Shown piece by piece: positions 808 through 2,227 of a stretch of DNA of 5,789 nucleotides (its first letter is position 1; the number at the start of each line of letters is the position of its first letter). The notes below the pieces were generated by a model. The model was not told the origin of the DNA. It saw only the letters and a program-made list of their open reading frames with translations, and did not search any database. This DNA comes from Bacteroidota bacterium. GTDB lineage: Bacteria > Bacteroidota > Bacteroidia > NS11-12g > UBA9320. Location: assembly GCA_003484585.1 (NCBI GenBank), contig DNBZ01000036.1, positions 1 through 5,789 of the forward strand, given 5' to 3'. A program made the position numbers and the translations under genes.

Positions 808-976
808 CTAAAAGTTTTTCTATATAAACACATGCATCCATTAGTTCTTCTTGTAGATGTACGAGCCACTGCTCTTTGGAGAGATCTTTACGCTCCATTG
901 TAACACCATACTTATTTTCACCAACTTTTGCTCTCTCTTCTATCTTCTTACAGACTCTTTCTTCTATCTTACTCAT
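785..976 (-). CDS. MazG-like small protein (putative all-alpha NTP pyrophosphohydrolase)
   Basis: This 63-aa, probably all-helical protein carries a pattern common in small phage MazG-like proteins. It has a charged helix ending in RAKVGENKYGVTMERKDLS (about 15-33), then a helix with QEELMDACVYIEKL (about 42-55). The EELMD segment corresponds to the E-E-x-x-D metal-binding part of all-alpha NTP pyrophosphatases, which hydrolyse (d)NTPs to (d)NMPs and pyrophosphate. It is shorter than full MazG domains (about 100 aa), so it would have to work as an oligomer or may have lost catalysis. Its ATG overlaps the TGA of the preceding 52-aa gene in an ATGA arrangement, and its 3' end overlaps the nuclease gene by 23 bases, so translation is probably coupled. 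A nucleotide-pool role is inferred from family resemblance only. Confidence 0.75.
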   Translation of the reverse strand: MSKIEERVCKKIEERAKVGENKYGVTMERKDLSKEQWLVHLQEELMDACVYIEKLLDDFQRIK

Positions 977-1131
977 GAACCACAGTTTTCACAATCTGGG
1001 TTGTCTATTGAACAAGCCTCTGGTTGTTCTTTATCTTCTAAGTCAGTTAACCAAGAGTCAAATGTATTATCTCTTGATTCATCTGCTTTCTTAGCTAAAT
1101 CTTTTAAGTACTCTTGATCATTTGTTGCCAT
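973..1131 (-). CDS. 52-aa acidic protein with a C-terminal cysteine cluster
   Basis: An open frame on the minus strand runs from ATG at 1131 to TGA at 973 and is supported mainly by context. Its stop overlaps the start of the MazG-like gene as ATGA, the usual sign of translational coupling. The protein is acidic and helical for about 35 residues (MATNDQEYLKDLAKKADES at the start). It ends in a tail with C40, C47 and C50 (spacing C-x6-C-x2-C, CENCGS at the end), which could bind a metal ion. No signal peptide or membrane segment is seen and I do not recognise a family. It is the first gene of the leftward operon, so its start lies next to the structured intergenic region. A structural or regulatory partner of the next gene is possible but unproven. 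Confidence 0.7.
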   Translation of the reverse strand: MATNDQEYLKDLAKKADESRDNTFDSWLTDLEDKEQPEACSIDNPDCENCGS

Positions 1132-1160
1132 AAATATACGCATTTAATTGTTAAAAGAAA

Positions 1161-1208
1161 AGTGGCTAAAAGAAAACCAAATTGAAACGCCACTAACTTT
1201 TCAATTGG
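1161..1208. other. Candidate H-type pseudoknot
   Basis: Two interleaved stems are visible. Stem 1 pairs AGTGGC (1161-1166) with GCCACT (1189-1194). Stem 2 pairs CCAAATTGAAA (1177-1187) with TTTCAATTGG (1199-1208), giving ten pairs with a single bulged A at 1181. The 3' strand of stem 1 lies in the loop of stem 2, which is the H-type pseudoknot order. Both stems are fully Watson-Crick, so the strand cannot be told. On the minus strand it would sit 29 to 77 bases upstream of the ATG of the 52-aa gene, where it could control translation of the leftward operon. It may also simply be two alternative hairpins. Confidence 0.45.
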
Positions 1209-1333
1209 GAGAGTCATTGCTGGTTCAACTCTCAAACATCATTACATGAAGGGACTTATCTGATCCAACAGCCGTTGCTGACTGAAGTGTCGGTTCGGTA
1301 ACCCAGATTGCAAATCTAGATAAAAAAATCTAG
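1209..1333. other. Cluster of four short hairpins
   Basis: Following the pseudoknot candidate are four inverted repeats. GAGAGT (1209-1214) pairs with ACTCTC (1228-1233). CAGC (1269-1272) pairs with GCTG (1277-1280). GGTT (1292-1295) pairs with AACC (1300-1303). CTAGAT (1316-1321) pairs with ATCTAG (1328-1333) around an A-only loop. AGATT (1305-1309) can also pair with AATCT (1313-1317), which competes with the last hairpin. Single short stems like these arise by chance in AT-rich DNA; their density is the reason for listing them. Confidence 0.35.
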
Positions 1334-1364
1334 TTAGTACTACAAAATTTTAAAAAAATTTTAT

Positions 1365-1396
1365 AAAAAAATATCCCCCTCGAAATGAAGGGGATA
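1365..1396 (-). terminator. Rho-independent terminator reading leftward
   Basis: On the minus strand a GC-rich hairpin is formed by TATCCCC and GGGGATA (plus-strand arms 1372-1378 and 1390-1396). It is followed at once by seven T residues (complement of 1365-1371) and more AT-only DNA. This is a classic intrinsic terminator for leftward transcription; on the plus strand no T run follows. It lies upstream of the leftward operon, not after a gene, so it implies leftward transcription starting to its right. It could act as an attenuator in the operon leader, as the end of a small RNA, or as a block to antisense reading. Confidence 0.75.
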
Positions 1397-1409
1397 CAAA
1401 CCATGAGAA

Positions 1410-1454
1410 ACTGTTATGAAAACATTGTCACTTAAAAGTGACACACAAAACAGT
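1410..1454. other. Nested hairpin
   Basis: An outer stem pairs ACTGTT (1410-1415) with AACAGT (1449-1454). Inside it GTCACT (1427-1432) pairs with AGTGAC (1437-1442) around a TAAA loop. A competing pairing exists between CATTGT (1423-1428) and ACAATG (1455-1460). No T run follows on either strand, so it is not a terminator. All pairs are Watson-Crick and give no strand information. Confidence 0.4.
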
Positions 1455-1518
1455 ACAATGATACAAAACTTTTATTTATAAACCAAAACATTTTAAAAAT
1501 TTTATGAGAGAATGAGTT

Positions 1519-1590
1519 AGTGGACCTCCTAGCCTGATACCCCTACCAATGTCTGAGCGGATCAGACACCCCCGGGTGTCTTAGTCCACT
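1519..1590 (+). ncRNA. Three-tier structured RNA element in the leader of the 188-aa gene
   Basis: A long hairpin can be drawn in three tiers. The base is AGTGGAC (1519-1525) with GTCCACT (1584-1590). The middle is GATACCC (1536-1542) with GGGTGTC (1574-1580), including one U-G pair at 1538/1578. The top is GTCTGA (1551-1556) with TCAGAC (1562-1567) closing the loop GCGGA. The wobble pair works only in the plus-strand RNA, which favours that strand. An alternative stable hairpin, GACACC (1565-1570) with GGTGTC (1575-1580), uses bases from both upper tiers and excludes them, so the element could switch between two folds. It is GC-rich in an AT-rich setting and ends 70 bases before the start of the 188-aa gene. 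I do not recognise a known riboswitch or ribozyme; boundaries and function are unknown. Confidence 0.5.
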
Positions 1591-1603
1591 CCGATCGTGA
1601 AAG

Positions 1604-1630
1604 GCAGTAACGGTTGCTAGCCGTTGCTGC
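1604..1630 (+). promoter_or_regulatory. Ten-pair hairpin 30 bases before the 188-aa gene
   Basis: GCAGTAACGG (1604-1613) pairs along its full length with CCGTTGCTGC (1621-1630), closing a 7-base loop. One pair is U-G (1608/1626) in the plus-strand RNA and would be A-C in the minus-strand RNA, so a rightward transcript is favoured. It is followed by about 30 bases of AT-rich DNA and then the ATG at 1661, so it could protect the 5' end of the mRNA or affect its translation. Its 3' arm contains the word AGCCGTTGCTG seen also at 1270-1280. Confidence 0.5.
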
Positions 1631-1660
1631 TATATTTATTAACCCTAAATTATATATGTT

Positions 1661-2227
1661 ATGGGAAATTTAGCAAAAGGAGCTACGACTCCAAAGTCAA
1701 TTAAGAAAGCTGCTGCCAAAGTAGCTAAGATTATGGATGCTGCAGAGTCTAGCGCTCAACGTCAGTACAATGTCAACAAGCTTGGCGTACGTAAGGAACT
1801 TGATGAGTTCTTCCGAGTTGCAAAGATTGTAGAGTCAAGTAACTCTGACTACTACATGTTGCACTTGGTTGAAGGCACTAAGAAGTACGATCCTTTCAAG
1901 GTATCTGTACCTATCCTTGCAAGTGACTTAAGCTTTAACTATGTAGGACAAACCTACTTAGATAAGAGCATGACAGTCGCTGATGTAGATCACAAGTCTA
2001 TGGTGTCCTTACTTGAGGTAGCTGATAAGCACCTTAATGAGGCGTTCATCAGTGATGAGTACTACATCTATGGGTTCCAAGTGTTGCGTTACTTTGTAAC
2101 TGAGAAACCTACTGAGAAGTGGTCTTCAGTTGACATTGTTGATGACAATGGTGATGTGTTACACCAAGGTGTGTACATCAAAAAGCGATTGGTTCGTGCA
2201 GATGGTAGTGCACTAGACCAAGAGTAG
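1661..2227 (+). CDS. 188-aa protein of unknown function, probably highly expressed
   Basis: I do not recognise this protein. Residues 1-35 are rich in Lys and Ala (SIKKAAAKVAKIMDAAES) and probably form a basic amphipathic helix. The rest mixes strands and helices, with aromatic-rich stretches such as DEYYIYGFQVLRYF (about 132-145) and an acidic loop DIVDDNGDV. No signal peptide, membrane segment or catalytic motif is evident. Codon use differs from the neighbours: lysine is mostly AAG, GC content is visibly higher and the stop is TAG. This fits either strong expression or a separate origin. It stands alone, with a long structured leader before it and a strong terminator 12 bases after its stop, which favours an abundant, separately controlled product such as a DNA-binding or structural protein (inference). 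ATG at 1661 lacks a Shine-Dalgarno motif and follows AT-rich DNA. Confidence 0.88.
   Translation: MGNLAKGATTPKSIKKAAAKVAKIMDAAESSAQRQYNVNKLGVRKELDEFFRVAKIVESSNSDYYMLHLVEGTKKYDPFKVSVPILASDLSFNYVGQTYLDKSMTVADVDHKSMVSLLEVADKHLNEAFISDEYYIYGFQVLRYFVTEKPTEKWSSVDIVDDNGDVLHQGVYIKKRLVRADGSALDQE

Follow-up and report, generated by a model that had tools for sequence, protein, structure and literature searches.

The 529-base gap at positions 1132-1660 of the window (the whole stretch of DNA analyzed, 5789 bases, which is all of contig C65) is predicted to hold two separate conserved elements that are read as RNA in opposite directions. The left element is, with a probability of about 0.5, a leader of roughly 153-181 nt acting as a transcription attenuator of a terminase-carrying operon, and it is likely the gate that decides when the phage late genes are read. 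The right element is likely a separate plus-strand 5' leader of the rightward, replication-side operon. A sequence-only reading of the same DNA had proposed either one large structured noncoding RNA or a double leader between divergent operons, and it is the latter alternative, two divergent leaders, that fits best. The gap itself is real: it parts divergent operons and is without a credible gene.

The assembly from which the contig comes is 70% complete and consists of 376 contigs. The window is phage DNA, its leftward genes including an exonuclease (PHROG 298) and its rightward ones a family-A DNA polymerase. A contig near-identical to it, L001, extends the leftward genes via a GroES-like protein to a large terminase on the same strand. 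The best match of this terminase was to Cellulophaga phage phi14:2 (38.8%), whose record places it under Crassvirales, while the top match of the window polymerase was uncultured phage cr108_1, which we take to be a crAss-like phage, the next distinct match being a Leptolyngbya phage. Since the L001 terminase is nearest to phi14:2 and the polymerase to cr108_1, the window phage is most likely a relative of Crassvirales. The sigma factor of the assembly is similar to primary sigma factors and is presumably of the Bacteroidota type; the bin in which the contig was placed is no proof of the phage host.

The gap as a whole folded better than its dinucleotide shuffles on either strand (z -6.6 on the plus strand and -4.0 on the minus strand), and inverted repeats, of which the sequence-only reading had counted at least eight, are indeed abundant, with 37 pairs in 1100-1700. 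Comparison with relatives split it in two. In the first four relatives compared that cover the left part besides the near-identical L001 (L004, L005, L006, and L008), BLAST aligned it at 81-89% DNA identity, while the right part aligned in some relatives only. In these same four the left element is present, the right one is absent or only partly alignable, and a different gene comes next on the right.

On the right side, the stretch before p4 showed 81-86% DNA identity over 162-167 bases in L059, L025, L009, and L021, where the p4 protein itself is 46-62% identical, and 76% over 129 bases in L010. The region 1507-1632 folds in the window with z -4.5. The three-tier hairpin that had been described there does form in the window, but its outer and inner tiers are not conserved in relatives, which keep another helix (the first listed for the right leader in Table 1) together with the hairpin at 1604-1630. 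Across six sequences the two helices pair, with four pairs changing on both sides, and the plus-strand cells comprise 91 Watson-Crick pairs, 11 G-U, and no A-C, a count that includes an innermost pair unable to form in the window and L059, where it would leave a two-base loop. The first rightward gene varies among the phages, being p4, an unrelated 99-aa protein (L004 5641-5937, L005 4516-4812, and L008 4002-4298), or others in L012 and L017, and the leader before it differs along with that gene. An 11-base repeat common to both leaders (AGCCGTTGCTG), which would allow them to pair, was rejected as it is not kept in relatives such as L059.

The left element was found in 35 IMG/VR contigs (one of them truncated) as well as in the window by nhmmer on the fetched loci, one copy each. 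When all 2.9 million viral contigs were scanned with exact and IUPAC patterns, every matching contig occurred once, contigs of 80-96 kb included, and the scans after the first added no contig beyond those of the exonuclease search. That search was considered for the best 80 of 122 relatives. Among these, 42 loci have an exonuclease at 63% identity or above. The element is present in 34 of them (truncated in one), and the remaining eight (L037, L044, L047, L052, L057, L062, L063, and L067) have their contig end 0-723 bases ahead of the matched gene, the 723 bases being those between gene and contig end in L044. The covariance model R1 scored the window at 183.5 bits, the window being among the sequences behind the model. 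It found no element in the 38 loci of distant exonuclease relatives from the same best 80 (37-48% identity; L069-L106) and no copy in 38 kb of the 100-kb phi14:2; weak R1 matches at E 0.28 and above were taken as chance. A blastn search of a group-A element against 50,697 phage records gave three short matches only (E 0.8), and a pattern scan of the genome collection gave no match to the left element.

Thirty-one distinct copies were aligned, 24 of them window-like (group A) and 7 with a longer helix in place of the first hairpin and a larger P2 loop (group B); L036, which lies at a contig end, and identical or contained copies were omitted. Two group-A copies with a long insert in P2, L013 and L034, were kept out of alignment A5, which contains the other 22 of the 24. 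With identical rows merged for the pair counts, 21 rows were left in A5 and 29 in the core alignment of all 31 copies. The element is more conserved than its surroundings. In 19 group-A relatives the identity of the core to the window was 85-96%, against 54-71% for the third codon positions of the exonuclease. The corresponding figures were 95-99% and 89-98% for the nearer relatives L001, L012, and L017, and 71% and 44-45% for the most distant copies, L065 and L066. The adjacent exonuclease gene could be measured in 29 relatives, and in 27 of them the core identity was higher than even the whole DNA identity of that gene, the exceptions being L001 (98.6 versus 99.3) and L017 (94.9 versus 94.9); L021, whose fetched stretch is without an exonuclease, stood outside this comparison. 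The unpaired stretches of the element are highly conserved as well. Two crossing ORFs of the left half (1148-1249 plus and 1104-1235 minus; 33 and 43 codons) were rejected as a small protein because L004 and five of the seven copies in group B have a one-base deletion that shifts the frame.

Conservation of this kind was accompanied by conserved pairing. On the minus strand, the A5 model has 40 pairs in eight helices, one of them a pseudoknot, within 156 nt, and 99.4% of the cells pair; when the partners were slid, pairing dropped to 22-47%. Both-side changes occur in 5 of the 40 pairs, a number matched by 3 of 500 shuffles, and the covariation score was reached by none of 500, while the number of pair types was not above the shuffles (356 of 500 reach it). 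The element thus exceeds the shuffles on four of five measures, an excess that is not a probability because the copies are related. The figures were similar without the pseudoknot stem. In the core of all 31 copies (29 distinct), 24 pairs were 99.4% paired, with both-side changes in four. Both-side changes were found in both halves of the gap, in the right one among six sequences, when the search for homologues and covariation that had been suggested for it was carried out by pair counting in place of R-scape. As a single sequence, the left element folds no better than chance (z +0.6), and the support for it is comparative.

The strand was read from the wobble pairs. G-U and A-C cells on the minus strand stood at 46:3 in A5 (five pair positions versus two), in a count that has one base in two helices, with the shifted pairs being C-G in every A5 copy, and at 14:4 in A4, where one shifted pair arising from the same double placement supplies 2 of the 4 A-C cells. 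This excess of G-U over A-C marks the minus strand as the putative RNA strand of the left element. A plus-strand RNA has the slightly better single-sequence fold (z -0.9), yet the wobble pattern opposes it, and it was rejected.

Table 1. Features of the divergent gap and its flanks (coordinates are those of the window)
Feature	Position	Strand	Details
Left leader RNA	1151..1306	-	Predicted to start at 1306/1305 and to end within the second U-tract; model R1; alignments A4/A5, pair counts
Promoter-like box TAGATTTG, Bacteroidota -7 type (TAnnTTTG), AT-rich tract before it	1311..1318	-	31/31 copies
Hairpin P1, GGUU-ACCG-AACC	1292..1303	-	Outer pair G-U, G-C, or A-U; longer helix instead in group B
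P2, ACUU/AAGU + CAGUC/GGCUG, 11-nt bulge UUGGAUCAGAU	1254..1288	-	Two pairs change on both sides
P3 hairpin, GAGAGUUG/CAA-UGA-CUCUC, loop AACCAG	1209..1233	-	GAGAG, GAAGG, GAAAG with matching partners
P4, first terminator-like hairpin, CCAAUUGAAA/UUUCAAUU-U-GG	1177..1208	-	-6.7 kcal/mol
First U-tract UUUUCUUUU	1168..1176	-	8/9 U in 31/31 copies
P5, pseudoknot stem AGUGGC (1194-1189)/GCCACU (1166-1161), second terminator-like stem	1161..1194	-	5/6 pairs invariant
Second U-tract UUUUCUUUUAA	1151..1161	-	8/9 U in 31/31 copies
First gene of leftward operon, small protein	973..1143	-	Predicted start 1143 or 1131
Canonical terminator, upstream of promoter box	1371..1397	-	11 pairs then T-run, -16.5 kcal/mol
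Right leader, before p4	1507..1632	+	Helices about 1565-1570/1575-1580 and 1604-1613/1621-1630
p4, first gene of rightward operon, unknown function	1661..2227	+	

The individual helices differ in how they are supported. The nine-pair helix that replaces P1 in group B was registered by hand; four of its pairs differ on both sides between L065/L066 and the other copies and stay intact, a fifth differs likewise but is disrupted in L053, and four of the seven copies have A-C at one pair. In P2, three pairs have one or two unpaired copies. P4 shows both-side changes in L011 and in L065/L066 and G-U elsewhere, with one mismatch and one gap in addition in L065/L066. The pseudoknot already noticed in the window is present: the stems 1208-1199/1187-1177 and 1194-1189/1166-1161 interlock, and both were also found in relatives. 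Its second stem, P5, links the P4 loop to bases past the first U-tract; it is without covariation support because it is invariant in A5, and its innermost pair is broken in L065/L066. A further pairing, of the RNA 5' end (CUGGGUU) with the P3 loop, was rejected, loop changes being uncompensated and group B being without the 5' partner.

The element is framed by a promoter-like box and terminator-like ends. In PMC6847099, the -7 element of Flavobacterium johnsoniae is given as TAnnTTTG, refined to TAHHTTTG, with transcription starting 4-5 nt later and with AT-rich motifs upstream. Since F. johnsoniae starts fall 4-5 nt after this element, transcription of the left leader is predicted to start at 1306 or 1305. 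In 28 of the 31 copies one of the two H positions of the box is G, a base avoided there in the F. johnsoniae promoters of that source. It is the only TAnnTTTG in 1132-1660 on either strand, so that none is found on the plus strand of the gap; in the whole window the motif is not enriched (9 versus 7.6 expected). Hairpins with T-runs similar to the canonical terminator upstream of the box occur in relatives too.

At the other end, the odd base of the U-tracts differs among copies (C, A, or G), and its position is shifted in L065/L066. Judged as intrinsic terminators, which have a GC-rich hairpin and a U-tract of 7-8 nt, the U-tracts fit, while the hairpins are weak and have long loops: the P4 loop is 11 nt, and P5 has -6.2 kcal/mol with a loop of 22 nt. 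Both hairpins are less stable than the canonical terminator upstream of the box (-16.5 kcal/mol). A terminator scan limited to loops of 3-8 listed neither. The fetched loci, many of which overlap, were scanned over 2.3 million strand-bases for the composite of hairpin, U-tract, interlocking stem, and U-tract; it occurred only here and, in group B, within the AT-rich zone of this gap, and L065 and L066 fell below the thresholds. All 31 copies have, 6-32 nt past the leader, the first ATG of an ORF of 25 or more codons, and none has a second TAnnTTTG between leader and ATG. In L021 the usual small first ORF is swapped for an unrelated 48-aa one with a hydrophobic stretch, and the leader stays.

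From these features we infer transcription, termination, and readthrough of the left leader. Transcription by the host polymerase would begin at the TAnnTTTG box, yield the leader, and then run into two overlapping stops, P4 with its U-tract followed by P5 with the second U-tract. Most transcripts would go no further than P4 or P5, and a full operon mRNA would need readthrough of both, because the first ATG follows so closely and no second TAnnTTTG lies in between. P1-P3 together with the UUGG-A-CAG bulge would be the likely docking site for whatever allows readthrough, be it a protein of the phage, one of the host, or the polymerase. The terminase and structural genes would in this way be held back until late infection, much as at lambda PR'-tR'. 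By eye, we saw no conserved antiterminator pairing in the left element.

The genes downstream are consistent with such a role. According to a review (PMC10136315), early and middle genes of crAss-like phages are read by a virion polymerase and late genes, the terminase included, likely by the host enzyme. That the gap has a host-type box only on its leftward side agrees with late genes read by host polymerase. The late-gene content rests on the terminase and GroES of L001, with the timing taken from that review of other crAss-like phages; the leftward operon also includes the exonuclease and PhoH, which are not necessarily late.

A pseudoknot directly before a start codon is a usual site of translational control. 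The main rival to the attenuator, which we consider unlikely, is that every mRNA of the operon carries the leader, which controls translation or stability, its pseudoknot setting ribosome access or protecting the 5' end and its U-tracts serving as an unstructured ribosome landing sequence. The closeness of the first ATG in all 31 copies speaks for this reading, and the weakness of both stems (-6.7 and -6.2 kcal/mol) keeps it alive. It leaves unexplained why a tract with eight U in nine bases comes right after each stem, when its odd base is variable and in two copies shifted.

Also unlikely in our view is that the leader would dispense with a separate factor, the conserved 5' domain folding onto the host polymerase while the enzyme is leaving the late promoter, and so forming an RNA-only antiterminator that carries the enzyme past the pseudoknotted double terminator. 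If this were true, the leader itself would gate the hand-over from virion polymerase to host polymerase.

A stand-alone small RNA of 153-181 nt acting in trans, with the late mRNA arising by occasional readthrough or from elsewhere, we regard as rather improbable. The promoter-like box, the terminator-like end, and the very high conservation, which extends to unpaired stretches, would all suit it, but in all 31 copies an ORF begins 6-32 nt further on and no TAnnTTTG separates the two. Still less probable is a ligand-sensing riboswitch with P1-P3 as the aptamer (for instance for a nucleotide-pool signal in replication) and P4/P5 as the expression platform. The order of the parts, a conserved domain and then terminator-like stems, resembles one, and bulge and loop sequences are nearly invariant; against this, the window gave no Rfam riboswitch match up to an E of 5, inspection by eye showed no antiterminator stem of the mutually exclusive sort, and the element is found here in one phage group only. 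Finally, the idea of the whole gap as one giant ornate RNA of the GOLLD/ROOL kind, to which gap length, fold z-scores, phage origin, and the GOLLD RNAs of sister phages had lent appeal, is hardly credible and was rejected because the strand evidence differs between the halves, whose wobble pairs lie on opposite strands, with the right half absent from relatives that keep the left and no Rfam family matching.

The Rfam comparison was made as the sequence-only reading had advised. The scan of the window against Rfam 15 at E up to 5 reached no family, neither GOLLD, ROOL, nor a riboswitch: it returned five weak matches, all far below gathering scores, which were taken as chance (one of them, JA04 at 1356-1428 minus, lies over the upstream terminator). 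Among 29 sources from relatives no riboswitch scored above gathering, and only GOLLD and Pistol were found, both elsewhere. GOLLD exceeded its gathering score in four sister phages (L008 6333-6722, L005 6424-6819, L006 5178-5597, and L050 1579-1972 minus), on the rightward side and about 2-3 kb from the leader. The suggestion of a new RNA family holds in part: an element that is conserved, RNA-like, and unmatched by Rfam occupies the left half, and the single large RNA is unsupported.

Other RNAs were noted in the neighborhood. The tRNA said to lie nearby was not borne out, as ARAGORN called no tRNA gene in the window. At 2807-2846 on the plus strand we saw by eye a tRNA-like minihelix with an acceptor-like stem and a T arm only, without an anticodon arm. 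Similar minihelices lie at L004 6362, L009 4898, L012 12255, and L118 1490/1380/1167 (minus), and in others, with two or three of them in L050 and L118; they have a UUCGAUU-type T loop, end in ACUA or ACCA, and are possibly RNase P processing sites. A Pistol ribozyme is located at L050 3184-3253 (minus), between the divergent gap and GOLLD; L050 is from the same contig as L011. ARAGORN called a tRNA-Sec-like gene with anticodon TCA at L117 178-273 (minus), a possible stop-codon suppressor.

Among the matches listed from open-licence papers, none describes a leader RNA of crAss-like phages, and none describes a cis-element behind their change from virion to host polymerase. A leader with a terminator close to its promoter is of a known kind, and it is the left RNA element with its interlocked double stop that is new to the literature searched; what it adds is an RNA of this build that is unmatched in Rfam 15. 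A compact conserved leader at the divide of two operons would make the polymerase switch directly testable in a reporter.

Four known kinds of RNA element bear comparison with the left leader. GOLLD (RF02032) is likewise a phage RNA and occurs in four sister phages while being absent from the window; many of its members exceed 800 nt (PMC12286853), and where a GOLLD or ROOL RNA would run as one strand through the gap, the G-U asymmetry points to the minus strand on the left and to the plus strand on the right. Riboswitch and attenuator leaders share with the left element a conserved domain and a terminator-like platform before an operon, and differ in that the left element has no Rfam 15 riboswitch match and no antiterminator stem that we could see. 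The putL and putR elements of phage HK022, as presented in PMC9378689, are about 70 nt long, have two stem-loops, and serve early genes. Like the left element as read here, put is a structured phage RNA downstream of a promoter, and it acts on RNA polymerase, suppressing termination by itself by way of the beta' zinc-binding domain; its two stem-loops in about 70 nt contrast with the left element, which has eight helices, a pseudoknot among them, over 156 nt. The PR' promoter, the tR' terminator, and the Q antiterminator of the lambda-type late leader are described in PMC6606751. Its arrangement, a promoter, a leader, and a terminator followed by late genes, is the one predicted for the left element from its promoter-like box and weak terminator-like stems. 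In Q systems the specificity element is promoter DNA, whereas here it would be RNA-like, conserved and covarying, and would include two terminator-like stems that interlock. The lambda-type late leader measures one to two hundred bases, and the left leader is predicted to be about 153-181 nt long.
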